Notes under the pieces: generated by a model
Seen by the model: only the letters and a program-made list of their open reading frames with translations
Told to the model about the DNA's origin: nothing
Databases searched by the model: none
Assembly: GCF_000626715.1 (NCBI RefSeq)
Contig: NZ_AQRA01000008.1
Location: 1-64,000 of the forward strand
Reading direction: 5' to 3'
Origin: Aquimarina atlantica
Lineage (GTDB): Bacteria; Bacteroidota; Bacteroidia; Flavobacteriales; Flavobacteriaceae
DNA: 64,000 nucleotides
Position numbers and translations under genes: made by a program
Shown: piece after piece, positions 4,101 to 43,021 of the stretch
How positions within the stretch are numbered: position 1 is the first letter of the stretch
How the letters are laid out: each line of letters starts with the position of its first letter

Positions 4101-7100
4101 ATCCAAATTATCAACCGGATATTAGTCTTCCTGACTATGATCCTGATCAATTTATTGCAATTTATGAAGTTACAGTAACAGGAGGTTCGGGTAATTTTGC
4201 TTTTAATAACCAGGCAGATTTCTTGGGTACTGTCTTAGCACCGATAACAGGAACAACTTATCAATTTAGAGCAACTACTGCGGGTAATTATCCGGTATTT
4301 GTTAATGATCTGGATAATAGTTGTACTATAGCGGCTGGTAGTGTCGATGTAAGCCCTTATACGGCAATTACAGCAACTGCTACGGCTATTAATCCTGCTT
4401 GTAATGCGGATAGTGGATCTATCCAGGTTACTATTGGTGCAGGAGCAACAGGACCTTTTACATACATTCTTAATCAAGGAACAGCTTCAGAGGTAACAAT
4501 CGGGCCTACTGTTAATACTACAGAAACTTTTAATAATGTAGATCCATCGGTATCGCATACAGTTACAGTACAAGATGGATTTGGTTGTGATTTTACAGTT
4601 ACTCCAAATGTTACCTTTACAACACCAGCTAGTATTACAGCTACGATAAATGATGATTTCAGGTTGTTGAGTTGTACGGCAACTCCAGGGGCTCAAGCCC
4701 AGGTAACTGCTATAAACGGAGGTTCAGGAACATATGAATGGAGTTTAAACCCAGCAGGTCCTTTCACAGCAGTAGGAGCAATACCTTTTGAGATTGATTT
4801 TGCTACTGATGGTTCTTATACATTATATATTAGAAATCAGGCTACCGATGATTGTTTAACACCTTTCCCAATTACTATAGATCCAAGATTAGAGGTTGAT
4901 AGTGTAACCATTACGCCTGGAGATCAGGATTGTTCTAATCAAACTGTAGATGTTGTAGTTTCTGCTTTGCCAGCACTAACGGCTCCTGCATTTTATGAAT
5001 ATAGTATTACACCGGATCCTGCTACAGGAACTGGTGCCACAGGTACAACAGCTTTTAGTACTACTATAGCATATACGTTTACTAATGGAGTACTATATAC
5101 AGTTACGGCCAGAAGAAGTGATACTCAATGTGTAAACACAGAAAGTTTTACAGGAACTACAGTTCCTGAAATACAAATTACAAGTGCTTCGCAGGATAAA
5201 CCTGTAAATTGTGTAGGAGGCAGTGACGGTATATTATCTTTTACCGTTGGTAATAGTGCTGCATATACGTATACGGTTACTGGTCCTACGGCTGTTCCGG
5301 CAGGAGCAGGAGCAGGAGTAACTCCGGTAACAATTGGTTCATTATCTGCAGGTACCTATACGATTACGGTTACAGATACAAGCCTTTCTGCACCATCTGT
5401 AAATTGTTCTACAACTACTACGGTAGATATTACAGAACCAACAGACCCACTTAGTTTTGATCCTTTTGGTATAGATGCAGCTGATTGTGGTAATCCAACA
5501 GGTTTTATTACTGTAAATGTTACAGGAGGACGAGGAGGTTACGAATATCAATTACGAGATGCAGCGGGTGTTGCAATAATTACACCGTATCAATCAAGTA
5601 ATGTATTTGGTCCTTTAGCAGACGGTACTTATACTGTTTTTGTACGTGATGGAAGTGACCCTGCAACGGCTTGTGAGATTAACCAACAGGTAGTTGTACC
5701 AGTTACAGTTGCTCCTAGTATTGCTTTGGCTACAGGAGGAGATGTTTGTTATGATACAACCAATCAAGCTACACAAAGAATTACTATTACTTTAGGAGTT
5801 CCAGCACCTGTCGGTCCATTTACCTATAGTTTAGATGGTGGTGCTCCGGTTGCTGTGGTCTTTTTACCGGGTCCTGCTCCGGCGAATACTTTTGAGATTC
5901 CTAATCTTACCCCAGGAGCACATACAGTAACAGTCACTAATACAGGAAGTACTTGTACTTCTAATACAGAAAACTTTACTATAAACCCAGAATTAACAAT
6001 TACGGCTAATTTAGACAAAGATGTAGACTGTAATTCTGGTGCTAGCATATCATATACTGCTACAGGAGGAGATGGAACGTATACATTTAATTTGGTAGGA
6101 CCAGCTCCTCAATCAGGAATAGCTAATCCTGTAACAGGAATTACTACACCAGGAACTTATCAGATAGAAGTTGAAGATGGATTAGGCTGTACAGCATTAT
6201 CAAATACTATAACTGTTAACGCATATGAAGCATTAGCAGGAAACCTTGTAGGAACAGATCCTGCCTGTCCGGCAGATAATGGAGAAATAACAGTTAATGC
6301 TACTGCTGGAGAAGGTCCGTTTACTTATATTTTGGATGGAGCTATAACATTCGGTCCAACAAGTAATGTATCTCATACATTTAATGGAGTTGATCCTACA
6401 GTACCTCATAATGTTATAATACGTGATCGATTTAATTGTGAATTGCCGTTAGGTCCGATATCATTAACTCCTCCGGCAGCAATTTCTGCTACGATAGATG
6501 ATGATTTCAGATTGTTAAGCTGTACCGCTACCCCTGGTGCTCAGGCCCAGGTAACGGGTATTGCAGGTGGTTCGGGCACTTATGAATGGAGTCTAAATGC
6601 TGCAGGTCCATTTACCGCAGTTACAGCCATTCCTTTTGAGATTGATTTTGCTACAGATGGAACGTATACTTTATATATTAGAAATCAAGCTACAGATGAT
6701 TGTGTTGAGTCTTTCCCAATTACAATAGACCCACGTTTAGAAGTTGATGATATTACTTTTGTAACAGGAGATTCAGATTGTTCTGCCCAGACTATTGAGG
6801 TAACAGCAACTGCGGCTCCTGTAGGACCAACATATACATATAGTGTTGTTCCTGCGCCAGTATCTGGTAATGCTACAACTGGGGTATTTGTATTAAACAG
6901 AGCTGTAACATATACGTTTACTGCGACAAGAGGAGATAATCAATGTTCTTATAGTGAAAATTATAGACAGGAACTAGTTCCTGAAATACAGATTACCAAT
7001 GCGGTAGAAACCAGTCCTACAACCTGTATTGGGGGTAGTGATGGAGCGCTTTCATTTACGGTTGGTAATAGTGCTAATTTTACATATACTATTACAGGTC

Positions 7101-10100
7101 CGATTGCGGTTCCAGGAGGAGCAGGAGTGGGAGTTACCCCAGTAAATGTTGGTTCTTTAGAGGCTGGAGTATATACTATTACTGTAACAGATTCTAATCT
7201 GGCAGGAGGTTCTCCACCAAATTGCCAGGCTACAACTACGGTGACGATTACCCAACCAGATCCTATTACATTTACAATAGATCCTGTTGTTCAGGATTGT
7301 GCTGCCGATACTAATACAGTTACTATTAGTGCTGTTTCAGGAGGTAGTGGGGCAGGATATACATACGTATTAAACGATTCAGGCGGAACACCATTAGGTG
7401 CGAGCCGTCCTGTTAATCAGCCTTACAATAATGTACCTAATGCAACGGGATATGAAATTATTGTTACTGATGGTGCAGGGTGTACATCTCCACCACAAAC
7501 ATTTGATATCAACCAATTACCACAATTAGATGCAAGTGTTAACACAGGTTCTGACTTCTGTTTGGATGATGGAACAGTAAGTTTTACTATCGATATTGAT
7601 GGTACTGATTCTGGTACCCCAGATTATACATATAATGTAACTAGAAGTGGTGTGGTAGTAATACCAGATACCAATGTTGGTGCATTAACTACGTTCACAA
7701 CAACTCCGGCATTAACTTTACCAGGAGATTATGTGATAACAATTACAGATAGTAATGGTTGTCCTGTAGTATTGCCAACGCAAACTATTGAACCAGCAGT
7801 AGAATTGGTAGTTACCCAGGTTGCAGATATTACTTGTGATGCACTAGGTAATCCCGTAAACGCTTCATTCTCATTTGCTATACCGGCATCAAACCCTGGA
7901 TATACTCCTTATACGATTGATGTTTCATTTAACGCAGGTCCTTTTACAAATCATTTAACAGCTGCTACAGCACCGTTTGCAAATTATACAGCTACTTCTG
8001 GAGCAGGAGACTATACGTTTAGAGTTACTGATGCTAGAGGTTGTACTTTTACGACAAACCCATTTACGGTTACAGATCCGGTTGCACCAACAATTGCGGA
8101 CCCAGATGTAGACCTTGCTTGTGCTGGAGATACAGGAACTGTCGTAATTACTGTTACAGGTACAGAAACACCATATGAAATAGACTTTAATGGAGCAGGA
8201 TTTGTGACAATCACAGGTACTCAAATTTCATTTCCTAATTTAGCTGGGGATGCTGGAGATGCTGATCCAACAACAAATACAAGTACTTATAATTATACAG
8301 TTAGAAGTAGTAGAGGATGTCTATACCCTGGAAGTGTAGATGTAAATCAACCAGCGCTAATTACTGAGGTAAACAGAGTAGAGACACCTGTTACTTGTGG
8401 AGGTTCTCCTATAATAACAGATCTAGGAGCTATTGATTTTGAAATAGCAGGTGGTACAGCAAATTATACCTATACCTTGGTTACTGCAGCGAATTTTGCG
8501 GTACGACCATTAGTTCCTGCTACTACTGCTGCTACAACTCCAAACCCTGTGACCACAGGAACTACTGTGAGATTTGAAGGCTTAGACTTTGGTCAATACT
8601 TCATTTTTGTAACCGATGCGAATGGATGTACAGATAATGCTCCTTTTGGACCATTTGATATCTTTTCTCCACCAAACGATTTGGTTCAGAATATTACAAT
8701 TTCTGCAACTTGTCCGGGTGGTGTAATTTTTGATATAGACGTACAAGGAGGATCAGGTATTGATGGGTCAAACCCTCCACCTGGATTTGATATACGTATT
8801 GTTGGTGAAACTGGACCAAATGGTGTTTTCCAACCTTTAAATGATGATCCTTTAAATGCAACTGTAGTAGATGCTACTACACCAATTAGAATACACCGTT
8901 ATGGTGGTGCAAATGCAGGTGCTTTTGATGTTTTAGATTTCAACAGGACCTATATCTTAGAAGTAAGAGATAATGCAACAAACTGTTTATATCAGGAGAT
9001 AGTTCCTCCTGTTGCTCCACCATCTTCGCCAAATATAATAAATGATGTAGTTACTGATGTATCATGTAACCCTTCACCAGATGATGGAACATTAAACTTT
9101 GATGTATCAGGTTACGATGCTTCAGTTACAGAAATATCCTGGGAAGTATTTAATGCATTTACTAATGTATCTCTTGGTGCTGCCTATACAGGATCAAATG
9201 CTGGACTAACAGGAGCAGATACTTCTGTTTCAATTACTGGTTTACCACCAGGTCAATTCTATGTTACTGTAAGAGAAGTAGACGGTACAATGTGTCCGGC
9301 AAGACATGATTTTACTATTGATATGCCAGATCCATTAACGTCAGTAGCGACAAATCAAACTCCGGCCAATGGTTGTGGTACTAATGCACAGGTTATTATG
9401 GATACCGATGGAGGTACGCTATTTGCAATTCCTCCAACTGCAGATGGATATCGATATGCATTAATAGCCGATGATGGTTTTGGAGCTCCGGTTACTACAC
9501 CAACATTGTTAGCAGATTTTCCATTGACTAGTAATGTAATTGATTTGGGTAATAATGATACAGAGGTGCAACATATATTTGTTATAGATGATAATGGATG
9601 TACTTTTGGCCCTGTTACCGTTACAACAGTAGCGAATCCACTTCCTACAATAGTTTCAGCTAACTTTATAGATGATTGTGCTTATGACAATAGTAACGTG
9701 ATACGTATTGAAGGTGGTGGGTTAGGAACATTAACGTATCAGCTAGATGGTGGTACTGCGGTTGTTGGAAGTATTAATAACAATAATCATGAATTTACAG
9801 TTTCGACACCAGGAACCTATACTATTGGCGTTACCGATGAGACAGGTTGTACGGTAACTACTCCTGTTGATGTGTATGGACCATTACAGATTAGTGCTGC
9901 GTTTACAGTAGCACCTGATTGTACGAATCCAACAGGAACAATTACCACAACAACAACTTCTGGAACGATACAGGGAACAGCAACATATGTATTACAAGAT
10001 TCTGGTGGTACTCCTACCGGAAATGTATCAGGAGTCGCAAATGGTATATTTTTAAATGTTGCCCCTGGTAGTTATATTGTTGAGATAACAGATGATGGTC

Positions 10101-13100
10101 GAGGAACTGGGCCTGCTTTCTGTTCGTTTACGGCACCGGTGAGTATAGAAGAACCTACATTACCTGTATTATTAGCACAACCTAATACAAGTGTAACGTG
10201 TAACGGAGATACAGATGGTGTTGTTAATGCAGTACTTGATCCGGCAACAGAAGATCTTACCGCTACATACCAATATGAAATTATTGCACCTATTGTAGTT
10301 GCACCACAAGCAAGTCCACAATTTACAGGACTTGGTGCGGGCACTTATACGGTAAGAGTAACTGCTACAGAAGCCAATGGAGCATTATCTGTGTTGTGTA
10401 CAGCTGATAGAGACTATACCATAGACAACCCAAGTGTAATTACTGCAACGGGTACTGCCCAGGATCCATTAACGTGTGGTGCAGGCAATACAGTAAGTGC
10501 AGGAACTATAGCGATTACTATTGATGCTACTACAGGAACAGGACCAGATTACTTTGTAACGGTTACACAACCAGATGGAGTAGTACGAACAAGAATACCA
10601 GTACCAACACCAATACCGGCACCACCTGCAACTGCATTGCTTATTGCTGCACCTGTAGATGGCGTATATAACATCACTGTTTTTGATACGAATAATTGTT
10701 CACTTGTACTACCTCCAGTACCGATTGCTCCATTACCAGTGATGACCGATCCTACGGTAACTGCAGGAACACCTATAGATTGTGCTACTAATGTTCAACC
10801 GGTAACAGTTTCTATAACCGGAGGAACAGGACCATTTGATTTTGTAGAAACTAGTGGAGCAGTAGGTCCTGTAACAGTTGCTGCCGGAATAGGTAATGTT
10901 GATCCACCACCAGGAGTTCAAACTATTGCGTCGTTTAATTTACCAGGAGTGGGTAACTATGTGTTCGAAATTACTGATACTGCTACGGGATGTACGATTC
11001 AAACACCTTCGTTTAATGTACCAGAATATGATACGATTGAGGCTACTATAGCACCTTTAACGAATATAACGTGTGTAAATGATTTAACAGCTGGAGAAGT
11101 TACTTTAACTGTTACAGGATACACAGGAACGTATGACTTTACGGTTACAAATGCCACTACAGGTACCAGTACTAATGGTACAGGAGATACAACGGTGCTA
11201 AACCCAATTACAATTTCTAATTTGGAAGCAGGAGATATATCTGTGGTTGTAACAGCTACAGCGGCGCCACTTTCATGTAATGATACCTCAAACATTGTTA
11301 CAATTTCGGCTCCAGCACCATTAACACTAAATCCTTTAAGTAGATCAACCCCTGATTGTAACAATCCTTTATCAGTGGTTACAATGGAAGCTGGAGGAGG
11401 AGTTGGACCATATAACTTTGCGGCTGAAGCAGGAACATTAGTTCCTGGTCCACCACCAGCAACTCCTGGAGTATTTGCACTAACAGATACTTTTAGTTTA
11501 GACCCGACAATAAGTTTAGATTGGGTGATTTATGTACGAGATGCTAATGGTTGTATAGTACCAACACAAATAGCTATACCAGCGGTTACTGCACCTCCTA
11601 CATTAAACCCTATACCATTGTTTGTAGATGATGCATGTAATTTTGATAATAATTATACATTTACGGTTACTGCAACGAGTAATGTACCCGCACCAGGAAC
11701 AGGAAATTTAACATACCAATTAAATATGGTTACCCCTGTCGCTACTGTTGGTCCACAGGTACCAGGAAGCGTAAACAATAATACGCATGAATTTACGGTT
11801 ACCGCTCCAGGTACATATAGAGTATTTGTATATGATGAAAATGGCTGTCCATCAGCTTCACAAGACATAACAGTTTATCCAGAATTGTTGGTAACAGCAA
11901 CATTAACAGAGCCAACCTGTAGAGATAATGATGCTACAATAGTGGCTACAGTTAGTGGCGGTTCTGATATTACGGCAAATCCGGGTAACTTTACCTTCGA
12001 TTTAGTTGATGCTGGGACAGGCACAACTATACCTGGTGTAACACAAACCGCGGGACCAGGAGCAGATCAAATTACTTTTAGTAGCACTACTCCAGGGACA
12101 GATGGTATTTTCCCGGGAGATTATCGAGTAGAAGTTAACGATAGCGCAATAGGACCAGCTCTACCAGCCCCTGGCGGTTGTCCAGCAACTTTTAATATTA
12201 CTGTACCTACATTCTTAGATCCAATTCCTTCAGGAACGTCTACACCGGTTTCTTGTTTTAATGGAACTGATGGTACTATTTTAGTGAGTTTAGATCCAAC
12301 GGCAGATGATAATCCGTCATATCAATATGAAATTGTGGCAGGACCAGTAGTAAGAGGACCTCAACCAAATCCATTATTTGAGAACTTACCAGCAGGAACT
12401 TATGATATTGTTGTTACTTCTGATAAAGGATGTTCTAATACACCAGCAATTCAGGTAGTAGTAGGGGGACCAACGGCAATTCTTGATGCAAGTGGACTTC
12501 CTGGATCTTATACTTGTAATGCGACAAATGATCCTGTATCTCCTATTATTATAGTTACGATTATAGGAGGAACAGCTCCTTATGATGTGTCTTACACAGG
12601 ACCTTCGTCTTCAGGATCAGAAACAGATGTGGTAGATTCTGATGGTAATCCTGCTAATGGAGTTCAATATGGAATTACAGCACCAGTTGCTGGAACATAT
12701 ACGATCTCGGTTGTTGATAACAATAACTGTGCTGTTGCTAATTTTGATGTAATACAGCCTGCATTCCCGGTAATGAGTAATCCAACCGTAAATGCTGGAC
12801 CTGCGATTGACTGTAATACGAATACGCAGGATGTTACAGTTACTATAACAGGAGGTGTAGGTCCATTTAATTTTGTAGAAACCACAGGAGTTATCCCACC
12901 AGATAATAATGTTGGTTCGGGAGGAGCTACTACTACCAGTACTACATTTACCCTTCCGGGATTACCAACACCAGGTAGCTATATTTTTGAAATTTTTGAT
13001 ATTGGTACAGGATGTTCTATCCTTACGCCACAATATGACGTACCTGTATACGATACTATTGAAGCAACAATTGCTTTAGGTAATGATATTACATGTTTCA

Positions 13101-15871
13101 ATACTGTTCCAGCAGATGGTTCTGTTGTATTAACGGTAACAGGATATACAGGAGCATATAGCTATAATGCAACGAATACGACTACAGGTACAGTTACACC
13201 TGGAGTAGGAAATACTGCTACCGGAACACATACAATAGCTGGATTAGAAGCAGGTAATATTCAAGTAGTAGTAACTGCTACAGCAACACCATTCTGTAGT
13301 ACTCCTACAAATACAATTGCCATTACTCAGCCACCAGTTATTAACCTTTCTATAAATCAAATACAAGATGAAACCTGTAATCCAGGTGGTGATGCCACAA
13401 TAGAGGCAGTTGCCGGTGGAGGTACCGGAGCGTTACAATACCAATTAGAAGATACAGTAGGAGCACCTTTAGTACCATTTGGTAGTGATCCTAGATTTGG
13501 AGGCTATCAATTAGATGGTGGTGCAGCACCAGCAGGAATAGATTATGTAGTAAGAGTAAGAGATGCTAGAGGTTGTGAGGTAACAGATACTATTAATATC
13601 CAACCACCGACAGCTTTAGGGTTAACTGCAATTGCACCAATTCTATTAGATTGTTCTGATAGTGAGGATGGTACAATTACTGCTATTGCTACAGATGGCC
13701 AGGGACCAGGAACATATCTCTTTATGTTAACATTCCCTGATGGTTCACAATCTGGAGCGATTGCAAGTACTACAGATCGTTATGTATGGAATGATCTTAA
13801 ACCAGGTAACTATATTGTTACGGTTACCGATAACTTAGCGTGTGAAATTGCTCAAGATCCTGTAATTATTAATGCTCCACCAGCTGTGACGATAGATGTA
13901 GCTCAGGGACCAATAAGTTGTCTTACGCCTAGTCCTAACCCGATAACAGTTACTGCGGGAGGAGGAACTCCTGGTGGATACGAGTTTAGTAGTGATGGTA
14001 CTACCTTTGTTGCTGGTAATACGACACCTACAACGCATACATTTAATTTACCGGCAGGAGATTATAATTTCTATGTTAGAGATATAAATGGATGTGTTTC
14101 TCCGGCGTCTAATACGATACCAGTACGTGACCCTGTTCCATTATCGACAACGCTGGACTTAAGTAACACATCTATTGTTTGTTTTGGTGAGCCAACAGGT
14201 TCTATTGACGCAAGTGTTACAGGAGGATTAGGTAATTATGGCTATAGAGTAACTGGTACAGATTACTTAGGAAACTCTGTAACATTACCTGGCCCTTTAG
14301 CAACAGATACTCAAACTACTAGTTTCTTTGGAGATTTACGAGCGGGAAGTTATACGTATACGGTAACTAGTGGAGATTGTGTAGATAGTGTAACACCTTT
14401 TAATATTGATCAACCATTAGAACTTGATATAACCGTTTCTGCTACTCCAATTTCTTGTAATGGAGAGACCGATGGTAGTATTCATGTAGAAATTAATAGA
14501 GTTCCACCTCCATCAGGCCCTAGAGGAGGAACTAATCCATATTTCTATTCGCTATATGATAGTGCAGGTAATGCAGTATTCGTTTTCTTAGAAGATGATA
14601 TCGATGGGGCATCAGGAGAACATACGTTTATAGATTTACCAGCTGATACCTATCGAGTAGAAGTAGAAGATGGTAAAGGTTGTCCGGTAGAAGAAACAAA
14701 TATCATAATTATAGAACCAGCACCAATTTTGGCTACTGTAAATGCTACAACTCCAGAGGATTGTGCGGGAGATATGAATGGTACAGCTACCTTGTCTATT
14801 ACAGGAGGATTACCACCAGCAAATCCAGCAGATCCTAGTTATTTCTGGAGTATCGATGGGGTAACTTATCAACCGGTTACCGATCCTGCGAATTTGTTTA
14901 TAGATAATCTACCAGGAGGTACAACTACAGTATTTATTAGAGATTCTCAAAACAATGCAAACTGTCAGGGAGCCTTTAATATTGATATTGAACCAGGTGT
15001 TAACCTTGCTGGTGAACTCGTACCAGAATTAGTATGTCCTGTATTTGACTATAGTGATCCTATGAATCCTGTGATGACCAGTGAGGAGCAATACTTTGTA
15101 AGTTTTGATATTGTTGAAGAGTCACAAGGACTAGGTATTATTTATACTTTAAATGGTATAAACGGAACACCAAATCCTCCTAACAATTCGAATTTGACAG
15201 GTAATTTTGAGGTTACTCCAGGAGAGTATGAAGGTATTATGGAATACCAGGGATGTACACGAACAGTAGATACTATTGAGATTCTTGAGTATACTCCATT
15301 GGCAATACCAGTTGCTCAAATGACAAATAACCCGCAAGATCCTAATGAATATCGAATCATAGCATCAGGAGGAAGACCATTTGAAAATACTCCGTTCTAT
15401 GCATTCTCATTTACGATGTTAGAAGAAGGAATGACATTGGATCAATTAGAGCCTTCAGACTATACAGAATTAGATGGAGATATTTTTGTGATACGACAAA
15501 CTGCAGATTATGTATTGCGTGTTGTTGATGCAGATGGTTGTGAGGTACTTACGGTTCAGAATCTGACATATATAAATATTCGTATCCCGAATTACTTTAC
15601 ACCGGATAGTCCTAATAGTACAGCAGAAGATCGTTTCTGGTATCCTAGACAGATTACTCCTAATGTAGATGATCCTTTCTTCTTTGAGAACATGGAAGTA
15701 ATCGTCTTTGATCGATACGGAAGAATGTTAGCAGAATTTAAAGGAGATCAACAAGGATGGGATGGTCTATATCAAGGAAAACAACTTCCATCGGGAGATT
15801 ATTGGTATTCTATAATTCTGAATGATGTAGACAATAGAGAATTTACCGGCCACTTTACATTATATAGATAA
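1169..15871 (+). CDS. Giant SprB-type repeat adhesin with T9SS type B sorting domain
   Basis: This 4,900-residue secreted protein is probably a mobile cell-surface adhesin of gliding motility, like Flavobacterium SprB. The annotated ATG is at 1169, but the ATG at 1202 fits better because it directly opens a signal peptide (MKLRLKSAIVL...LSAQ, cut after SAQ). Residues about 422-560 resemble a DUF11 repeat domain. Residues about 600-4750 are dozens of 80-100-residue SprB-like Ig-fold repeats. Each carries a conserved Cys near its N-terminus, a GG-G/P-Y core and a G-Y-V-V-D-GC end. The last ~97 residues form the gliding-motility C-terminal domain, with NYFTPD, VIVFDRYGRML and GWDG-Y-G-LPSGDYWY, which is the T9SS type B signal. 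It is followed by its likely SprF partner. Exact function (gliding or adhesion) is inferred. Confidence 0.93.
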   Translation: MMTKYPNTPRLMKLRLKSAIVLVFLMIGIQLSAQVTPVPVPFQEVPNSTLRINGELKIIGNAITGLNQSGFTPNDSYNGNASNNRKFFGYIDIDGDPSTFSSSSADLQLNGSFDCERIAYAGLYWAASYFDTDAFGDVIYDNLPVPDTRPDFRTIKIKHQSQAAYTTITPAQTQVIYNGYPTVAGNTAETDIQYVCYADVTTLLQGIADPSGTYTIADMRASTGFSGFGIVNGISSGWVLVVVYEDPSLSAKFISTRSGFLNNQPCNPADPGCLKNFTYTGFQTLPAPLPVRARYSVAALEGDRPFTGDIFQIERPDGVRQNIFTTPANPNNNFFDSSISVDGSYGNAAAVPIPGDPPIREPHSRNTLGFDADIFNIPNPNNTVIPNTPPGNTASTTFYTTSTNDAYSVFFSSFQIEVIEPELTVKKRVLDVNGVDITGDPVNFADQLFYELTIENQGNENITTASIRDVLPDNVDFTLGSITTSPGIVATPNGTNRQIDITIDDALVVRNGGEHTVRFGVSVVATCADLRDACSNQITNVAISTYTGVDSGILKDGEESILEQDVCKRDIIGTSNVLINDGICFTTAQPAFICTGSLTLTAGAGFSSYEWVNASSPGVVIGTNRDLVVTTAGTYIVTETGAPGCQDAQQTFNVDAFNTVTNPLETIANNLASNPNVNGNVRTCPITGDPLPEIFLCGAGTTLTIPLPSGPGNTLGFPVGTTVEWQRLDPAACPAVPRDPNCPTTDAGCDGDWVTLSTDINSFTISQAGEYRVNATFDSNCTIPFYFNVFQNNFDPDLTVVRQIICGTPGTIRVQNSSLQYEYQLITPITNTVIGYQASAEFTGLTEVGTYTVNVRQVGGLPTACVFQETVFLDELDATETVTPTSPTCPGDQGQIQISVTDSQINYTYIINSTTTAFNDTEGPTTVPNHTFTGLNPDTYNVQVLSADGSCSEPFTVTINDPAAFSATIRLVEDLHCNPNYQPDISLPDYDPDQFIAIYEVTVTGGSGNFAFNNQADFLGTVLAPITGTTYQFRATTAGNYPVFVNDLDNSCTIAAGSVDVSPYTAITATATAINPACNADSGSIQVTIGAGATGPFTYILNQGTASEVTIGPTVNTTETFNNVDPSVSHTVTVQDGFGCDFTVTPNVTFTTPASITATINDDFRLLSCTATPGAQAQVTAINGGSGTYEWSLNPAGPFTAVGAIPFEIDFATDGSYTLYIRNQATDDCLTPFPITIDPRLEVDSVTITPGDQDCSNQTVDVVVSALPALTAPAFYEYSITPDPATGTGATGTTAFSTTIAYTFTNGVLYTVTARRSDTQCVNTESFTGTTVPEIQITSASQDKPVNCVGGSDGILSFTVGNSAAYTYTVTGPTAVPAGAGAGVTPVTIGSLSAGTYTITVTDTSLSAPSVNCSTTTTVDITEPTDPLSFDPFGIDAADCGNPTGFITVNVTGGRGGYEYQLRDAAGVAIITPYQSSNVFGPLADGTYTVFVRDGSDPATACEINQQVVVPVTVAPSIALATGGDVCYDTTNQATQRITITLGVPAPVGPFTYSLDGGAPVAVVFLPGPAPANTFEIPNLTPGAHTVTVTNTGSTCTSNTENFTINPELTITANLDKDVDCNSGASISYTATGGDGTYTFNLVGPAPQSGIANPVTGITTPGTYQIEVEDGLGCTALSNTITVNAYEALAGNLVGTDPACPADNGEITVNATAGEGPFTYILDGAITFGPTSNVSHTFNGVDPTVPHNVIIRDRFNCELPLGPISLTPPAAISATIDDDFRLLSCTATPGAQAQVTGIAGGSGTYEWSLNAAGPFTAVTAIPFEIDFATDGTYTLYIRNQATDDCVESFPITIDPRLEVDDITFVTGDSDCSAQTIEVTATAAPVGPTYTYSVVPAPVSGNATTGVFVLNRAVTYTFTATRGDNQCSYSENYRQELVPEIQITNAVETSPTTCIGGSDGALSFTVGNSANFTYTITGPIAVPGGAGVGVTPVNVGSLEAGVYTITVTDSNLAGGSPPNCQATTTVTITQPDPITFTIDPVVQDCAADTNTVTISAVSGGSGAGYTYVLNDSGGTPLGASRPVNQPYNNVPNATGYEIIVTDGAGCTSPPQTFDINQLPQLDASVNTGSDFCLDDGTVSFTIDIDGTDSGTPDYTYNVTRSGVVVIPDTNVGALTTFTTTPALTLPGDYVITITDSNGCPVVLPTQTIEPAVELVVTQVADITCDALGNPVNASFSFAIPASNPGYTPYTIDVSFNAGPFTNHLTAATAPFANYTATSGAGDYTFRVTDARGCTFTTNPFTVTDPVAPTIADPDVDLACAGDTGTVVITVTGTETPYEIDFNGAGFVTITGTQISFPNLAGDAGDADPTTNTSTYNYTVRSSRGCLYPGSVDVNQPALITEVNRVETPVTCGGSPIITDLGAIDFEIAGGTANYTYTLVTAANFAVRPLVPATTAATTPNPVTTGTTVRFEGLDFGQYFIFVTDANGCTDNAPFGPFDIFSPPNDLVQNITISATCPGGVIFDIDVQGGSGIDGSNPPPGFDIRIVGETGPNGVFQPLNDDPLNATVVDATTPIRIHRYGGANAGAFDVLDFNRTYILEVRDNATNCLYQEIVPPVAPPSSPNIINDVVTDVSCNPSPDDGTLNFDVSGYDASVTEISWEVFNAFTNVSLGAAYTGSNAGLTGADTSVSITGLPPGQFYVTVREVDGTMCPARHDFTIDMPDPLTSVATNQTPANGCGTNAQVIMDTDGGTLFAIPPTADGYRYALIADDGFGAPVTTPTLLADFPLTSNVIDLGNNDTEVQHIFVIDDNGCTFGPVTVTTVANPLPTIVSANFIDDCAYDNSNVIRIEGGGLGTLTYQLDGGTAVVGSINNNNHEFTVSTPGTYTIGVTDETGCTVTTPVDVYGPLQISAAFTVAPDCTNPTGTITTTTTSGTIQGTATYVLQDSGGTPTGNVSGVANGIFLNVAPGSYIVEITDDGRGTGPAFCSFTAPVSIEEPTLPVLLAQPNTSVTCNGDTDGVVNAVLDPATEDLTATYQYEIIAPIVVAPQASPQFTGLGAGTYTVRVTATEANGALSVLCTADRDYTIDNPSVITATGTAQDPLTCGAGNTVSAGTIAITIDATTGTGPDYFVTVTQPDGVVRTRIPVPTPIPAPPATALLIAAPVDGVYNITVFDTNNCSLVLPPVPIAPLPVMTDPTVTAGTPIDCATNVQPVTVSITGGTGPFDFVETSGAVGPVTVAAGIGNVDPPPGVQTIASFNLPGVGNYVFEITDTATGCTIQTPSFNVPEYDTIEATIAPLTNITCVNDLTAGEVTLTVTGYTGTYDFTVTNATTGTSTNGTGDTTVLNPITISNLEAGDISVVVTATAAPLSCNDTSNIVTISAPAPLTLNPLSRSTPDCNNPLSVVTMEAGGGVGPYNFAAEAGTLVPGPPPATPGVFALTDTFSLDPTISLDWVIYVRDANGCIVPTQIAIPAVTAPPTLNPIPLFVDDACNFDNNYTFTVTATSNVPAPGTGNLTYQLNMVTPVATVGPQVPGSVNNNTHEFTVTAPGTYRVFVYDENGCPSASQDITVYPELLVTATLTEPTCRDNDATIVATVSGGSDITANPGNFTFDLVDAGTGTTIPGVTQTAGPGADQITFSSTTPGTDGIFPGDYRVEVNDSAIGPALPAPGGCPATFNITVPTFLDPIPSGTSTPVSCFNGTDGTILVSLDPTADDNPSYQYEIVAGPVVRGPQPNPLFENLPAGTYDIVVTSDKGCSNTPAIQVVVGGPTAILDASGLPGSYTCNATNDPVSPIIIVTIIGGTAPYDVSYTGPSSSGSETDVVDSDGNPANGVQYGITAPVAGTYTISVVDNNNCAVANFDVIQPAFPVMSNPTVNAGPAIDCNTNTQDVTVTITGGVGPFNFVETTGVIPPDNNVGSGGATTTSTTFTLPGLPTPGSYIFEIFDIGTGCSILTPQYDVPVYDTIEATIALGNDITCFNTVPADGSVVLTVTGYTGAYSYNATNTTTGTVTPGVGNTATGTHTIAGLEAGNIQVVVTATATPFCSTPTNTIAITQPPVINLSINQIQDETCNPGGDATIEAVAGGGTGALQYQLEDTVGAPLVPFGSDPRFGGYQLDGGAAPAGIDYVVRVRDARGCEVTDTINIQPPTALGLTAIAPILLDCSDSEDGTITAIATDGQGPGTYLFMLTFPDGSQSGAIASTTDRYVWNDLKPGNYIVTVTDNLACEIAQDPVIINAPPAVTIDVAQGPISCLTPSPNPITVTAGGGTPGGYEFSSDGTTFVAGNTTPTTHTFNLPAGDYNFYVRDINGCVSPASNTIPVRDPVPLSTTLDLSNTSIVCFGEPTGSIDASVTGGLGNYGYRVTGTDYLGNSVTLPGPLATDTQTTSFFGDLRAGSYTYTVTSGDCVDSVTPFNIDQPLELDITVSATPISCNGETDGSIHVEINRVPPPSGPRGGTNPYFYSLYDSAGNAVFVFLEDDIDGASGEHTFIDLPADTYRVEVEDGKGCPVEETNIIIIEPAPILATVNATTPEDCAGDMNGTATLSITGGLPPANPADPSYFWSIDGVTYQPVTDPANLFIDNLPGGTTTVFIRDSQNNANCQGAFNIDIEPGVNLAGELVPELVCPVFDYSDPMNPVMTSEEQYFVSFDIVEESQGLGIIYTLNGINGTPNPPNNSNLTGNFEVTPGEYEGIMEYQGCTRTVDTIEILEYTPLAIPVAQMTNNPQDPNEYRIIASGGRPFENTPFYAFSFTMLEEGMTLDQLEPSDYTELDGDIFVIRQTADYVLRVVDADGCEVLTVQNLTYINIRIPNYFTPDSPNSTAEDRFWYPRQITPNVDDPFFFENMEVIVFDRYGRMLAEFKGDQQGWDGLYQGKQLPSGDYWYSIILNDVDNREFTGHFTLYR
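4358..5441 (+). repeat. Adhesin internal duplication block A, copy 1
   Basis: This block of about four SprB-like repeats corresponds to the block at 6221-7263. Both contain the near-identical stretch beginning DDFRLLSCTATPGAQAQV, followed by GGSGTYEWSLN, PFEIDFATDG and ITIDPRLEVD. Both also contain a later matching GGSDG-LSFTVGNSA segment. Boundaries are by eye. Confidence 0.75.
6221..7263 (+). repeat. Adhesin internal duplication block A, copy 2
   Basis: This is the second copy of the multi-repeat block at 4358-5441, offset by about 1.85 kb. The best-conserved part (about 6490-6745) differs from its partner by only a few residues. Flanking repeats in the block have diverged more but keep the same order. 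Confidence 0.75.
9655..11330 (+). repeat. Adhesin internal duplication block B, copy 1
   Basis: About six SprB-like repeats correspond in order to those at 11612-13349. Shared landmarks are a start with DDCAYDN (DDACNFDN in the partner), a NNN-HEFTV turn, a later PVM-(D/N)PTV-AG--IDC segment, YDTIEATIA, and LTVTGYTG. Confidence 0.7.
11612..13349 (+). repeat. Adhesin internal duplication block B, copy 2
   Basis: This is the second copy of the block at 9655-11330, offset by about 2.0 kb. It is more diverged than block A, but the repeat order and the landmark segments PVMSNPTVNAG, YDTIEATIA and TVTGYTGAY are kept. Boundaries are approximate. Confidence 0.7.
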
Positions 15872-37433: not shown

Positions 37434-37979
37434 ATGGAAATTCAATCTACGTTTATTGACGGATGTTTTATCCTTAAACCTAGAGTGTTTGATGATAAAA
37501 GAGGCTCTTTTTTTGAAAGTTTTAACCAAAAGGTATTCGAAGAAATTACTGGGTTAAAGGTCGATTTTATACAGGATAACCAATCTGTTTCTAAGAGAGG
37601 AGTAGTTAGAGGATTGCATTTTCAAACAGGCGACTATATGCAGGCAAAATTGGTTAGGGTAGTTAAAGGAGAGGTATTAGATGTAGTTGTTGACCTAAGG
37701 CCTAATTCTAAAACATATAAAGAACACTTTTCTATTGTGTTAAATGATCATAATAATTTTCAGCTATTTGTTCCCAGAGGCTTTGCACATGGGTTTATTA
37801 CATTGAGTGAAAGTGCAATTTTTAGTTATAAATGTGATAACTATTATCATAAATCTTCAGAATCAGGAATCATATATAATGATCCCGATCTTGCAATTGA
37901 TTGGAAATTAGACGCTTCTGAAATTCAATTGTCAGAAAAGGACAAAGATTTAGCTTTTGTAAAAGACTTAAAATTATAA
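37434..37979 (+). CDS. rfbC: dTDP-4-dehydrorhamnose 3,5-epimerase
   Basis: The third step of dTDP-L-rhamnose synthesis, a double epimerisation of dTDP-4-keto-6-deoxyglucose. It is a 181-residue cupin-fold protein with DKRGSFFESFN, the QDNQSVSKRGVVRGLHFQ block containing the catalytic His, QAKLVRV-KGEVLDVVVDLR, and PRGFAHGF-TLSE. It directly follows rfbA. A weak hairpin follows the stop codon. Confidence 0.95.
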   Translation: MEIQSTFIDGCFILKPRVFDDKRGSFFESFNQKVFEEITGLKVDFIQDNQSVSKRGVVRGLHFQTGDYMQAKLVRVVKGEVLDVVVDLRPNSKTYKEHFSIVLNDHNNFQLFVPRGFAHGFITLSESAIFSYKCDNYYHKSSESGIIYNDPDLAIDWKLDASEIQLSEKDKDLAFVKDLKL

Positions 37980-37994
37980 TACCTCAAAAATCAT

Positions 37995-38016
37995 AAAAAA
38001 ACAAACTTGTTTTTTT
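37995..38016 (+). terminator. Weak U-rich hairpin after rfbC
   Basis: AAAAAAACAA pairs with TTGTTTTTTT across a very short loop, ending in seven T bases. It is GC-poor, so it is at best a weak terminator. It would separate the rfbBAC segment from the leader of the next gene. Confidence 0.4.
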
Positions 38017-38058
38017 AAAGTAAATACTTGATGTTAAAAAAAATGTTAACGCTCATTT

Positions 38059-38083
38059 TTGTTTAGTTTTTTTTATTACTTTG
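38059..38083 (+). promoter_or_regulatory. Possible promoter ahead of the structured leader
   Basis: TTG at 38059-38061 and TTACTTTG at 38076-38083 (seven of eight to TAnnTTTG) have a spacer of only 14 bases, shorter than usual. A start near 38090 would put the whole structured element into the transcript of the second wzz gene. Confidence 0.3.
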
Positions 38084-38112
38084 CCCTGAATTTCTTTTAA
38101 AATTTTAAAAGA

Positions 38113-38245
38113 AAAACCTGGATTTTTTTGGGAAAGCACAATGCTAGTGCTTTATAATTGACGTTTTTCCTACCCTATCGTCAAAATAATAATATTTCAT
38201 TGATTCTAATAGATAAGAGACTTTTTATACATGTCTCCAGGTTTT
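38113..38245 (+). promoter_or_regulatory. Structured RNA leader upstream of the second wzz-like gene (unidentified)
   Basis: The 355-base gap before the gene at 38335 has no ORF but has nested pairing. A perfect 10-bp outer stem joins AAAACCTGGA (38113-38122) to TCCAGGTTTT (38236-38245). Inside it are a 7-bp hairpin, AAAGCAC/GTGCTTT (38133-38139 with 38147-38153), and a 6-bp hairpin, TTGACG/CGTCAA (38158-38163 with 38179-38184). A further GAGAC/GTCTC pairing (38217-38221 with 38233-38237) overlaps the outer stem, so the two could compete. This is a closed multi-branch layout like a cis-regulatory RNA. I do not recognise a known riboswitch class. About 90 bases separate it from the start codon. 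Confidence 0.5.
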
Positions 38246-38334
38246 GAATCTGCGATATTATGTTGTTTAGTTTTATTTAAAATTTATCAATTTTTTGGGC
38301 ATGATTGCTCCTTAAAACAAATTAACCTACGACG

Positions 38335-39375
38335 ATGAAAGAAAACACTTCAGAAGAAATTGACTTGGGAGAGTTATTTAGATTGATTGGTAATGCTCTT
38401 AATAGATGTATTAAGTTTATTGATGGGATTTTTAAAAACCTTTTTCATCTTTTTATTCTTTTTCTTAAGTTCATAAGGGCTCACTTTTTAAAATTTGTAA
38501 CTGTGACATTTATAGGAGCCATAATAGGAGGATACTTAGATTATAAGTCATTACCGGTATATAAATCTTCTATGATTATAGAACCTAACTTTAATAGTGT
38601 TCAACAACTATATAACAATATTGAATTTTATAATCAATTAGCAGAGCATCAAGAGAGTAAAGCTTTATCCGAGGCTTTACAAGTTAGTGAAAACGAAGCA
38701 TCATATATTAAAAAAGTTACAATAGAATCATTTTCTGATGAAACACAACGAATAAAACAGTTTAGTGAATTCATTAGTGGACTTGATTCTATCTCTCAAA
38801 AGCAAGTGGATTATGAATATTATTTAAAGAATTTTAATGATATCAACGCAAAGTTTCATAGAATACAAATAGAAGCAACCTCTCCAGAAATAGCAAAACG
38901 ATGCCAAAAAGCAATTGTAACATCAATAGAGAATAATGAGTACTTTAGACTTCAGAAAGAAATTAACGATCGTAATATTGCCCTTAAAGACTCGGTTATA
39001 GACATTCAACAGGAAGAAATTAATGATTTGCAAGCATTTTATAAGAAGATAAAAATCATGGAAGCTCAAAAACCTGACGGGATTACTAATATTAACTTGG
39101 CAGAAAATCAATCGGATCAGGTATCAGAGATCGAATTACTAAATCAGGCAGGGAAACTAAAAGACGAAAAAATTGAATTAAACAATGAAAAAGCAAATAC
39201 GAAGAATACCATTAATATTATTTCAGAATTCCCTAACAAAGGAGCTTTGGTAAATGATTTTATGAATAAAAAAATCGTATTGGTACCCATAGTATTTGTT
39301 ACTATCTTATTTTTGATCCTAATTCTTATTTCATTAAATACCTATTTAATGAAATATGACAAATTAAATACATGA
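38335..39375 (+). CDS. Wzz-like chain-length determinant family protein (second copy)
   Basis: A 346-residue inner-membrane protein, paralogous to the one encoded at 33389. The cytoplasmic start is EEIDLGELFRLI, an amphipathic stretch lies at about 30-48, and the first membrane helix is at about 52-68 (then GGYLDY). The periplasmic helical region begins SMIIEPNFNS, and the second membrane helix is near 318-338. It has no kinase domain. It should tune polymer length in Wzy-dependent polysaccharide assembly. It alone has a long, structured leader, which suggests separate control from the first copy. rfbD follows 17 bases later. Confidence 0.78.
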   Translation: MKENTSEEIDLGELFRLIGNALNRCIKFIDGIFKNLFHLFILFLKFIRAHFLKFVTVTFIGAIIGGYLDYKSLPVYKSSMIIEPNFNSVQQLYNNIEFYNQLAEHQESKALSEALQVSENEASYIKKVTIESFSDETQRIKQFSEFISGLDSISQKQVDYEYYLKNFNDINAKFHRIQIEATSPEIAKRCQKAIVTSIENNEYFRLQKEINDRNIALKDSVIDIQQEEINDLQAFYKKIKIMEAQKPDGITNINLAENQSDQVSEIELLNQAGKLKDEKIELNNEKANTKNTINIISEFPNKGALVNDFMNKKIVLVPIVFVTILFLILILISLNTYLMKYDKLNT

Positions 39376-40265: not shown

Positions 40266-41395
40266 AAAAAAACCTAATTGTTTTTGGAACAAGACCAGAA
40301 GCTATTAAAATGGCACCTTTAGTTAAAGAATTTCAAAAACATTCAGATATTTTTGAGACAAGAATTTGTATTACAGCTCAACATCGAGAAATGTTGGATC
40401 AAGTACTATCATTTTTCGAAATTACACCTAATTATGATCTCAATTTAATGAAACCCAATCAAAATTTGTATACACTTACTGCAGATATTATTGTGGGTCT
40501 AAAGCCAATTTTTGAAGAGTTTAAACCTGATTATGTATATGTTCATGGGGATACTACAACTACAATGGCATCTAGTATAGCTGCTTTTTATTCTGGAGCT
40601 AAAGTTTGTCACGTTGAGGCGGGCTTAAGAACATTTAACATGAAATCTCCATTTCCCGAAGAAATGAATAGAAGTGTAACCGGAATAATTTCTGATGTTC
40701 ATTTTTCTCCAACCGAGACTTCTAGACAGAATTTAATTAATGAGAATAAAGATTCTAATTCTATAATAATTACAGGAAACACTGTTATTGATGCTCTACA
40801 GTTTAGTGTTGAAAAAGTTAACACTGATCAGTTTAAGGATAAAGAAATAGAAGAATTAAAAAAAATTGTTCTGGCAGATAAAAAATTGATACTTGTTACA
40901 GGGCATAGAAGAGAGAATCATGGACAAGGATTTATTAATATTTGTGAAGCTTTAAAAAAAATAGCAACTGATAATTCAGACACACAAATTATTTACCCAG
41001 TACATTTAAATCCAAATGTTCAGAAACCGGTATATGAACTTTTAGATAAAGTTGATAATATTAAATTAATATCACCTCTTTCTTATCCTGCATTTGTCTG
41101 GCTAATGAGTCAATCCTATTTAATCATAACTGATAGTGGAGGAGTACAAGAGGAAGCTCCAAGTTTAGGAAAACCAGTTTTAGTGATGAGAGATACTACC
41201 GAAAGACCAGAAGCCGTTGAAGCAGGAACGGTGATTTTAGTGGGTACAGATAAAAATAGAATAATATCAGAAACAAAGAGACTTTTAGAAGATAAAAGTT
41301 CGTATGAAAATATGAGTGAGCTACATAATCCTTATGGTGATGGAAAGGCTTGTAAACGAATTGTAGAATATATTTCAAAAAATTATAATGGATAA
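40262..41395 (+). CDS. wecB: UDP-N-acetylglucosamine 2-epimerase (non-hydrolysing), WecB/WbpI type
   Basis: Interconverts UDP-GlcNAc and UDP-ManNAc, or, as WbpI, the 2,3-diacetamido-uronic acid forms. It is a GT-B fold, cytoplasmic protein of 377 residues with KKNLIVFGTRPEAIKMAPL, TAQHREMLDQ, VHGDTTTTMA, CHVEAGLRTF, FPEEMNR, VTGHRREN-GQGF, and DSGGVQEEAPSLGKPVLVMRDTTERPEA. I chose the ATG at 40262, which overlaps the rfbD stop (ATGA). An upstream extension to 40223 would add 13 unrelated residues inside rfbD. The neighbours (wecC and wbpB/D/E homologues) leave both WecB and WbpI roles open. Confidence 0.9.
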   Translation: MKKNLIVFGTRPEAIKMAPLVKEFQKHSDIFETRICITAQHREMLDQVLSFFEITPNYDLNLMKPNQNLYTLTADIIVGLKPIFEEFKPDYVYVHGDTTTTMASSIAAFYSGAKVCHVEAGLRTFNMKSPFPEEMNRSVTGIISDVHFSPTETSRQNLINENKDSNSIIITGNTVIDALQFSVEKVNTDQFKDKEIEELKKIVLADKKLILVTGHRRENHGQGFINICEALKKIATDNSDTQIIYPVHLNPNVQKPVYELLDKVDNIKLISPLSYPAFVWLMSQSYLIITDSGGVQEEAPSLGKPVLVMRDTTERPEAVEAGTVILVGTDKNRIISETKRLLEDKSSYENMSELHNPYGDGKACKRIVEYISKNYNG

Positions 41396-42605
41396 TAAAC
41401 CTAGCGTAGTAATGATCGGTTTAGGATATATTGGACTCCCAACGGCTGCCTTAATAGCAGATCATAAAGTACATGTTCATGGAGTAGATATTAATCCAAA
41501 AGTTGTAGATATAATTAATGCAGGTAAAATTCATATTGTTGAACCAGAACTTGATGAAGCAGTTGCAAATGCTGTAAAAGAAGGATACTTAAAAGCCTCA
41601 ATAACTCCTGTTGAAGCAGATGCGTATCTTATTGTCGTTCCTACTCCTTTTAAGGGTAAAAATGAACCAGACATTTCTTTTGTAGAATCTGCAACTAGAG
41701 GTATAATACCTTTACTAAAAGAAGATGATCTATATATTATTGAATCTACATCTCCAATAGGAACGACAGAAAAAATGATGCATTTAATTTATACAGAACG
41801 ACCAGAGCTAGAAGGAAAATTAAATATTGCGTATTGTCCAGAGAGAGTTTTACCTGGTAATGTTATGTATGAATTGGTTCATAATGATAGAGTTATTGGA
41901 GGTATTGATGAGAAATCTACCAATAAAGCTTTAGATTTTTATAAAAAGTATATTAAAGGAGATTTACATAAAACGAATGCCAGAACGGCTGAGATGTGTA
42001 AGTTAGTTGAAAACTCTTCCAGAGATGTACAAATTGCGTTCGCAAATGAATTATCTCTTATTTGTGATAAAGCAGATATTAATGTCTGGGAGCTTATTAA
42101 TTTGGCAAATAAACATCCTAGAGTAAATATATTACAACCTGGATGTGGGGTTGGTGGCCATTGTATAGCTGTAGATCCGTATTTTATTGTTGCAGATTAC
42201 CCTATGGAGTCACAAATCATTGGTAAAGCACGTGAAATAAATAATTATAAATCATTCTGGTGTGCAGAGAAAGTAAAAAATGCAAAACTTGAGTTCGAAC
42301 TGAAGCACGGAAGAAAACCAAGCATAGCACTAATGGGACTTGCTTTTAAACCCAATATAGATGATTTAAGAGAATCTCCCGCAAAGTATATAGCACAAAA
42401 AGTATTACAGAATGCTAACAATGAAGAGTATTACATTGTTGAGCCTAATATAGAAACTCATACGGTATTTAAGCTTACCGATTATAAAGACGCAGCAGAA
42501 AAAGGAGATATTATTGTATTTTTGGTTGCTCATAAAGAATTTAAGAAACTAGAAATATCAGAAGACAAGGTTGTATTGGATTTTTGTGGAATTACGAATA
42601 GATGA
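41388..42605 (+). CDS. wecC: UDP-N-acetyl-D-mannosamine dehydrogenase (WecC type)
   Basis: An NAD-dependent four-electron oxidation of UDP-ManNAc (or UDP-GlcNAc in WbpA-like enzymes) to the uronic acid. The 405-residue protein has the Rossmann motif VVMIGLGYIGLPTAA, the VPTPFKGKNEPD loop, IESTSPIGTTE, and YCPERVLPG. The catalytic Cys259 lies in PGCGVGGHCIAVDPYF, followed by GLAFKPNIDDLRESPA. The ANKHPRVNILQPG segment and the DDLRESP ending favour the WecC/WbpA branch over TviB. It overlaps wecB by eight bases and the next gene by four. Confidence 0.92.
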   Translation: MDNKPSVVMIGLGYIGLPTAALIADHKVHVHGVDINPKVVDIINAGKIHIVEPELDEAVANAVKEGYLKASITPVEADAYLIVVPTPFKGKNEPDISFVESATRGIIPLLKEDDLYIIESTSPIGTTEKMMHLIYTERPELEGKLNIAYCPERVLPGNVMYELVHNDRVIGGIDEKSTNKALDFYKKYIKGDLHKTNARTAEMCKLVENSSRDVQIAFANELSLICDKADINVWELINLANKHPRVNILQPGCGVGGHCIAVDPYFIVADYPMESQIIGKAREINNYKSFWCAEKVKNAKLEFELKHGRKPSIALMGLAFKPNIDDLRESPAKYIAQKVLQNANNEEYYIVEPNIETHTVFKLTDYKDAAEKGDIIVFLVAHKEFKKLEISEDKVVLDFCGITNR

Positions 42606-43021
42606 TAGAGAATAAATTAATAGAAAATGAAATTGCTATAATAGGGTTAGGCTATGTCGGTCTGCCTCTTGCAGTTGAATTTGGCAAACATAATTTTAAT
42701 GTTATAGGTTATGACATTAATTCTTCTAAAGAAAACTGCCCCGATATAAGAAACTCTAAAGTAATTGATGTAATTAATGAACTTAAAGAGTTTGGGGTTG
42801 AAGTTGAGATTTATGACCCACATGCCGATCATAAAGAAGTTAAAAAAGAATATAACGTTGACTTGATTAATGAACCAAAAAGAAAATACGATACTATTAT
42901 TTTAACTGTAGGGCATGATGAGCTCAAGAGATTAAATATCAATGAGTTAAGCAACACCAGTGTTATGATTTACGATGTAAAAAGTTTTTTCCCAAAAGAA
43001 TTAATAACAGATAGACTTTAA
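42602..43021 (+). pseudogene. Nucleotide-sugar dehydrogenase remnant, internally deleted but in frame
   Basis: A 139-residue ORF whose N-terminal ~40 residues are the NAD-binding start of a UDP-sugar dehydrogenase (IAIIGLGYVGLPLAVEFGKH...VIGYDIN). It passes directly into the C-terminal domain of the same family (KENCPDIRNSKVIDVINELK, then VEIYDPHAD). Intact TviB/WbpO-type enzymes have roughly 425 residues, so about 280 residues, including the catalytic Cys domain, are missing at about residues 40-43. The frame is intact and its ATG overlaps the wecC stop. It cannot be a working dehydrogenase of the usual kind. It may be a decayed gene, or a retained small Rossmann-like protein. Confidence 0.85.

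Follow-up and report, generated by a model that had tools for sequence, protein, structure and literature searches.

We analyzed a 64,000-nucleotide stretch of DNA from Aquimarina atlantica (assembly GCF_000626715.1, contig NZ_AQRA01000008.1, positions 1–64,000 of the forward strand; hereafter the window) around a gap of 355 nt (37980–38334) that, as read from the sequence, separates an rfbC-like gene from a wzz2-like gene. The latter (wzz2; 38335–39375, forward strand) is polysaccharide co-polymerase-like and the first gene after the leader described here. An initial annotation of this DNA had placed a structured leader RNA in the gap and considered it specific to the second of two chain-length genes. 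The gap is present at the length given there, and the first copy, wzz1, has no such leader because only 5 nt separate it from the preceding gene.

The name wzz held for the predicted fold and not for the family profiles. The protein had no match in Pfam at E 0.001, and a search of NCBIfam at E 1 returned no Wzz match, the single hit being weak, unrelated and far short of its cut-off. With the AlphaFold model (pLDDT 82.7) as the query, all 37 of the 37 Foldseek matches in the PDB at E ≤0.001 came from Wzc, Wzz/WzzE/co-polymerase or KpsE entries, with low TM-scores of 0.22–0.33 on the query length. Most rows of the VIA list match only the coiled coil at residues 207–294; the entry 6rbg reaches Z 9.3 with an rmsd of 9.6 over 243 residues, and the matches outside the co-polymerases are mostly long-helix. 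As the predicted fold matches polysaccharide co-polymerases, we consider the wzz label reasonable.

Two further features of the window deserve mention. A 139-aa nucleotide-sugar dehydrogenase fragment (42602–43021), in which the start of the NAD-binding domain is joined directly to the UDP-binding domain with no match to the central domain, resembles a copy with an internal deletion and lies next to the intact one at 41388–42605. At the other end of the window, positions 1169–15871 form a single open reading frame of 4900 codons.

Promoters in Bacteroidota follow the consensus TAnnTTTG. Direct reading of the gap reveals a promoter-like –7 box, TTACTTTGC (38076–38084, forward strand), and we infer that transcription of wzz2 starts near 38085–38092. 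A script found a TTTGC, TTTGT or ATTGC box in all 15 of the 15 leaders of wzz2 orthologues, 208–264 nt upstream of the start codon; its choice was the box whose distance upstream of the loop described below came closest to 90 nt, and L016 has a second box closer in. The leader had originally been delimited to 38113–38245, and this stretch does lie within it, but the relevant unit is longer, extending over approximately 38085–38334. Compared with shuffled sequences, the fold energies of the shorter and the longer stretch have z-scores of –2.40 and –2.17, respectively, and those of the 15 orthologous leaders run from –0.44 to –5.55 with a mean of –2.84, the weakest-folding being L081 (–0.44) and L039 (–1.1). 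The leader region as a whole thus folds beyond chance, as do most of the orthologous leaders.

The Rfam/Infernal scan proposed in the initial annotation found no family at threshold: the window contained zero matches at the gathering score, and between 37950 and 38400 a search up to E 10 returned three weak matches far below their gathering scores, JUMPstart (RF01707) not among them. The leader-bearing loci L011, L016 and L081 gave no Rfam matches either. We found no terminator-like sites on either strand of 37900–38500. A conserved leader peptide was considered and rejected, as the short open reading frames differ or are absent among the 15 leaders.

Searching genome contigs with the wzz2 protein, we identified 36 loci, 11 of which contain the CCTACC loop 131–173 nt before the start of the match. 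Among 66 Aquimarina genomes, 39 have a wzz2 match at E 1e-40, and 30 of these 39 loci were fetched for inspection of the upstream sequence. The model R1 gave matches at E <1e-5 in 12 of the 66 genomes, each upstream of a wzz2 orthologue and with only one strong match per genome, and reading of the sequences added two more leader genomes, G415 (L081) and G449 (L080, whose upstream DNA is identical to that of L016). Judged by eye, most fetched wzz2 genes that lack the leader have, instead, a promoter-like box near the start codon. In a protein tree of 41 rows, one change explains the leader (support 77/84; 72% of the bootstrap trees agree), and all four members of the neighbouring group (L014, L023, L028 and L029) are without it, a distribution that fits a single origin of the wzz2 leader inside Aquimarina. 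In one genome (G411; L075 / L055), the wzz2 orthologue has two TAA codons inside the matched frame while its leader looks intact.

No strong match was found outside the genus in the samples searched. Of 397 genomes of the family, R1 hit four at E 0.1, consisting of the window's own genome and the weak, ORF-overlapping matches L048, L049 and L050. When 395 genomes of the order were searched with the model R2, 17 gave a hit at E 0.1, where ~40 would be expected; setting aside the window's own genome, CCTACCC is present in just 1 of the remaining 16. In 31 viral contigs containing the 15-nt loop, no directly flanking stem exceeds 3 bp.

The annotated structure was a perfect 10-bp outer stem closing over two perfect hairpins of 7 and 6 bp, and all three helices are present in the sequence. 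We compared 15 distinct leaders of wzz2 orthologues, so that all counts come from one genus, and aligned them by MAFFT without the use of structure. The 7-bp hairpin, H1 (AAAGCAC/GUGCUUU; 38133–38153, arms 38133–38139 and 38147–38153), has 86.1% of its cells paired in 11 leaders, and three of its seven pairs have changes on both sides. The 6-bp hairpin, H2 (38158–38184), consists of the arms UUGACG (38158–38163) and CGUCAA (38179–38184) around the loop UUUUUCCUACCCUAU. Taken together, H1 and H2 have 88.4% of the cells paired in the same number of leaders, and their covariation of 0.239, in comparison with 0.158 in shuffled data, is reached by 2 of 500 shuffles; this set omits L016, which is misaligned in its alignment.

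Toward the 5' end of the leader, the minimum-free-energy fold of the window contains the hairpin H0 (38091–38114). By eye, hairpins in its place appear in most of the 15 single-sequence folds and are absent in L018; H0 was left out of the covariation counts. The centroid structure contains a small local hairpin, H0b (CCUGGA/UUUGGG; 38117–38132), which takes up the 5' arm of the outer 10-bp stem, and the folds of L072, L076 and L037 contain local hairpins whose stems differ, for example UCCUAAAA/UUUUAGGA. At the opposite end, ~24 nt upstream of the start codon, lies the hairpin H4 (GGGCA/UGCUC; 38297–38310). Across the 15 leaders, 69.5% of its cells are paired, six of seven pairs are changed on both sides, and the covariation of 0.376 (0.239 when shuffled) is reached by 1 of 500 shuffles; no hairpin of this type was seen in L017 and L081. 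The covariation check suggested for homologous Aquimarina leaders, here assessed against shuffles, thus detected paired changes in H1, H2 and H4, and the compensatory changes argue that the folded mRNA leader of wzz2 is real and has been kept across a group of marine Aquimarina.

H2 is the most conserved part of the leader, with a loop that hardly changes and a stem that varies with compensation. The loop core CCUACCC (38169–38175) is fixed across the leaders save for one C missing in L017, and the stems around it vary from UUGACG/CGUCAA to AUUGGU/ACCAAU (L016), AUGACAA/UUGUCAU (L018) and UUUGAUAUC/GAUGUCAAA (L081); the combined p-value for the four distinct stems is 1.4e-4. In 13 leaders (11 distinct rows) without L016, 95.5% of the cells are paired and the covariation is 0.164, in comparison with 0.108 in shuffled data; the score is reached by 7 of 500 shuffles, and the set contains two double-changed cells. 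Inclusion of the misaligned L016 (14 leaders, 12 distinct rows) gives 95.8% paired cells and a covariation of 0.250, in comparison with 0.132, reached by none of 500 shuffles, although one of the four double-changed cells in this set is an artefact of the L016 row. Within the wzz2 leaders alone, we thus consider the covariation of H2 moderate. In 14 of 15 folds, the core CCUACCC has an unpaired value of 0.9 or more, and the loop lies 51–96 nt downstream of the inferred transcription start. No consistent partner for it was found within the leader. A GGGAAAG stretch was rejected as such a partner, as it matches in the closest relatives only, and so were coding-region partners near +31 and +190, which fall on glycine codons and are not general.

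The outer stem (arms 38113–38122 and 38236–38245) fared differently. It had been judged unlikely to arise by chance, but stems of at least 10 bp within 140 nt also arose in 59 of 200 dinucleotide-shuffled versions of the gap. In 12 aligned leaders, 56% of its cells are paired and its covariation is no better than in shuffled data, 71 of 500 shuffles reaching the score; moreover, even in L009, a locus with 96% identity in wzz2, the stem is broken. Two competing 5-bp pairings exist, one overlapping the stem (38217–38221 / 38233–38237) and the other crossing it (38202–38206 / 38246–38250), and it had not been specified which of them was meant to form the proposed switch. The helix that is kept in the relatives, weakly, is the crossing one, GAUUC/GAAUC, which in the long-range helix P3 (38189–38261) encloses GAGAC/GUCUC. 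P3 has 71.7% of its cells paired, in comparison with 33–44% when slid, and weak covariation (35 of 500 shuffles reach the score). Given the break in L009, the shuffle-level covariation and the frequency of such stems in shuffles, we rejected the outer stem as the core of a switch.

The strongest feature of the leader, the conserved loop of H2, had been overlooked in the initial annotation, as had its recurrence before unrelated genes. In 12 leader-bearing genomes, the 10-mer TTTCCTACCC is found at 84 places. Among the 75 distinct places that we examined, 61 are inside an open frame of at least 90 codons and 14 are non-coding; the latter include one wzz2 leader (L266), and seven other wzz2 leaders among the 84 were left out. 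The 13 non-coding places outside wzz2 leaders represent ten loci, and at five of these (L162, L250, L277, L286 and L304) a stem enclosing the loop is significant at p <0.05 in comparison with shuffled flanks. The combined p-value over all ten loci, misses included, is 1.8e-7, or 2.6e-5 without L277, which shares its locus with L304 in a different genome; as the recurrence was found by following an observation, these p-values are not corrected for the order of the search. The five loci without a significant stem include L159 and L169, two of the three in the window's genome. Neither the 12-mer GGGTAGGAAAAA nor the 10-mer shows a whole-genome excess over the reversed pattern, and the notable feature of CCUACCC is its hairpin context in non-coding DNA, not its raw abundance.

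The genes next to these hairpins are diverse. In the window's genome, the hairpin of L162 lies 147 nt before an ORF with a GG leader that we call RiPP-like from its sequence and that has no Pfam match. At the locus shared by L277 and L304, an XRE regulator (HTH_31 in the L277/L308 copy) is followed by the hairpin and then by a small protein without a Pfam match, an arrangement found in four genomes. L250 (G402) and L325 are one hairpin, which precedes no gene on its strand. The distance from the hairpins to the start codon varies from ~50 to nearly 400 nt, and most of the hairpins outside wzz2 have a loop of 12 nt, in comparison with 15 nt in the wzz2 leader.

We trained the model R3 on four hairpins (L304, L277, L162 as L245, and L081) and searched 40 chosen genomes, of which 18 were Flavobacteriaceae outside Aquimarina and the rest Aquimarina, 12 of the 14 with the leader plus 10 others; with such a training set, the E-values are rough. 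The best two non-training matches, L309 (G416; 31.2 bits, E 0.005) and L310 (G410; 30.2 bits, E 0.009), belong to the same XRE–hairpin–small-protein locus in two further species and have other stems. We regard them as the cleanest support for the recurrence, though the locus itself was already in the training. The local fold of L310 gives CCUACCC an unpaired value of only 0.6 and contains no loop-closing pair. A further match, L327, lies ~60 nt before the T6SS gene tssD (PF17642) in one genome. Of the 11 leader genomes that were searched but had not contributed to the training, R3 recovered the wzz2 hairpin in no more than six, with E-values of 0.09–0.9; among the 18 Flavobacteriaceae outside Aquimarina, no match was better than E 0.08. 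Of the non-training matches outside wzz2, six of seven at E ≤0.15 and 1 of 14 fetched among the weaker ones are non-coding (p 8.5e-4), with the reservation that the line at E 0.15 was drawn after the list was seen and that L311 partly overlaps an ORF start.

Six CCUACCC hairpins from three loci have 96.3% of their cells paired and eight of nine pairs double-changed, and none of 500 shuffles reaches their covariation. G–U pairs in the stems of L009, L081 and L308 favour RNA over DNA. Sequence comparison thus identifies one loop motif on unrelated stems at unlinked genes, the pattern expected of a regulon. Among the literature matches listed, no title or start of an abstract names the CCUACCC motif, a weak negative as sequence strings are seldom searchable.

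Some of the loci contain other conserved sequences. Four Aquimarina genomes (L159, L222, L236 and L252) retain AAATTTTTCCTACCC, with one T fewer in L252, in the gap upstream of a secreted-protein-like gene that follows a hisIE-like gene; no significant close hairpin accompanies it in L159, L222 and L252. At L305, L309 and L310, in three genomes, a second conserved and structured-looking stretch, CCCGCUUC..GAAG..UAGCACUUGG..GCUUUAGCAAAGGCCGGGAACU, sits between the CCUACCC hairpin and a gene for an MKI[DE]-type small protein; it has no Rfam match and is possibly a separate undescribed RNA. At L162, an Rfam DUF805b RNA (1385–1419, minus strand; 43.9 bits) lies between the CCUACCC hairpin and the RiPP-like ORF.

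A loop that is kept while its stem drifts, and that is repeated at unlinked places, mostly in sense orientation upstream of genes, looks like the binding site of a trans-acting factor. Our preferred reading, to which we assign a probability of roughly 0.5, is that H2 displays CCUACCC to a putative trans-acting RNA-binding factor that would control several mRNAs after transcription has started. The wzz2 mRNA would start near 38085 with a leader of ~250 nt made of successive hairpins, and H2 would present CCUACCC in a flexible apical loop, its stem needing only to exist. The same display hairpin may serve the RiPP-like precursor, the XRE-linked small protein and tssD. The factor reading the loop, most likely a protein, would jointly set the translation, stability or elongation of these mRNAs; both its binding and the co-regulation of the genes are proposed from the pattern of conservation.

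The loop could also be read by other partners. An exposed, pyrimidine-rich loop that is kept while the stem drifts is what one expects of a seed target, and H2 might be the landing site for a small RNA with the G-rich seed GGGUAGG; the conserved tail AGAGUAGG of the DUF805b RNA in the RiPP leader even complements CCUACCCU save for one C·A. We nevertheless find this unlikely: in the window's genome, all non-coding perfect 10-nt complements (L159, L162, L169 and the leader) are sense loops before an ORF, and the leader itself contains no consistent partner. L162 was rejected as an sRNA complementary to the loop, being on the other strand a hairpin of the same sense. With no perfect antisense sRNA in the window's genome and no partner within the leader, we put a protein first. 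No better are the chances of processive antitermination, in which H2 would recruit a NusG-family factor to RNA polymerase early in a long polysaccharide operon, in the way that ops/JUMPstart recruits RfaH and the UNCG hairpin LoaP. The position of the loop, 51–96 nt after the inferred start and ahead of a long same-strand run of polysaccharide-type genes, would suit this mechanism, and at least two NusG_N proteins are found in 13 of 14 leader genomes versus 23 of 44 other near-complete Aquimarina (p 0.0097, uncorrected for kinship). However, G402 has the leader and a single NusG_N protein (at E 0.001), so that a dedicated NusG paralogue does not accompany the element in every genome, as would be expected of leaders read by RfaH, UpxY or LoaP, and the window leader contains no terminator-like site. 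Furthermore, both NusG paralogues of the window's genome sit in natural-product-like clusters, one (L187; G000:C3:226000-236000) among thioesterase-, aspartokinase-, aminotransferase- and phosphopantetheinyl-transferase-like ORFs and the other (L188; G000:C10:160000-171000) directly before a PKS-like giant ORF, as labelled from the sequence with no family search. With the paralogues so placed and G402 having just one NusG_N protein, antitermination has lost its obvious partner.

We consider the remaining explanations less probable still. A passive 5' UTR, whose hairpins would shield the end of the mRNA and leave the start region accessible while regulating nothing, comes closest: the 5'-terminal H0 and the H4 just before the A-rich start region are kept in most leaders, but the near-invariant loop of H2 and its recurrence elsewhere are left unexplained. 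An inverted-repeat operator, or a single-strand DNA hairpin bound by a protein, would be compatible with the perfect inverted repeat downstream of a promoter-like box, yet the half-sites change together around a fixed non-palindromic loop and G–U pairs are tolerated, making an element at the DNA level very improbable. The initial annotation had named a riboswitch and an attenuator among the possibilities, and a long structured leader with crossing helices before a biosynthetic operon is indeed what one would look for. But there is no Rfam match, the window leader lacks a terminator-like site, nothing resembling a conserved aptamer core was seen apart from one hairpin loop, and the samples searched gave no strong match outside the genus; we give a metabolite riboswitch or transcription attenuator the least credence of all.

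Several known systems resemble the proposed display of CCUACCC to a trans-acting factor. In CsrA/RsmA regulons, GGA in hairpin loops, within the motif ANGGAN, marks unlinked genes, including those for secretion and polysaccharides. The likeness is that a single short motif sits in the loops of otherwise arbitrary stems, at unlinked genes of such functions; the difference is that the motif is CCUACCC instead of ANGGAN and that an overlap with the start region was not seen. To our knowledge, Bacteroidota have no CsrA. A small fixed-loop hairpin in the leader of a costly operon is likewise read in trans in the LoaP-dependent UNCG hairpin of dfn/mln (PMC12691694), whereas the CCUACCC loops are 12–15 nt long, G402 has one NusG_N protein and no terminator was seen in the window leader. 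JUMPstart / ops with RfaH (RF01707) is a conserved stem-loop in the leaders of polysaccharide operons (PMC2864571), a setting that it shares with the wzz2 leader; the latter, however, is unrelated in sequence, has no RfaH-type partner tied to it, and shares its CCUACCC hairpin with non-polysaccharide genes. The EAR / epsC RNA (RF01735), which folds in the 5' untranslated region of exopolysaccharide genes and is linked to elongation (PMC2864571), is similar in its location, but the wzz2 leader has no Rfam match, a much simpler fold and a host from another phylum. Within Bacteroidota, the RRM-1 protein RbpB of Bacteroides, together with FopS sRNAs, controls polysaccharide genes at the RNA level and prefers single-stranded regions, and the motif most significantly enriched for it is 41 nt long and comes from an sRNA family (PMC11697453). 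The level of control would be the same in both cases, and no link of RbpB to CCUACCC was seen in that source.

The recurrence before unrelated genes hints at an undescribed control circuit at the RNA level, with polysaccharide chain length, the RiPP-like precursor, tssD and the XRE-linked small protein as candidate targets of joint control. As far as we know, little is understood about post-transcriptional control in Bacteroidota other than Bacteroides. The 27-nt hairpin, paired with a loop mutant, could serve as a direct bait for finding a new regulator. More tentatively, and at well below even odds, the CCUACCC-loop hairpins may constitute a post-transcriptional regulon in Aquimarina, and perhaps in Bacteroidota more widely. 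Genes for surface polysaccharide, T6SS, RiPP and XRE-linked functions would then answer to a single RNA-binding protein not yet described, acting as the counterpart of CsrA/RsmA in function.
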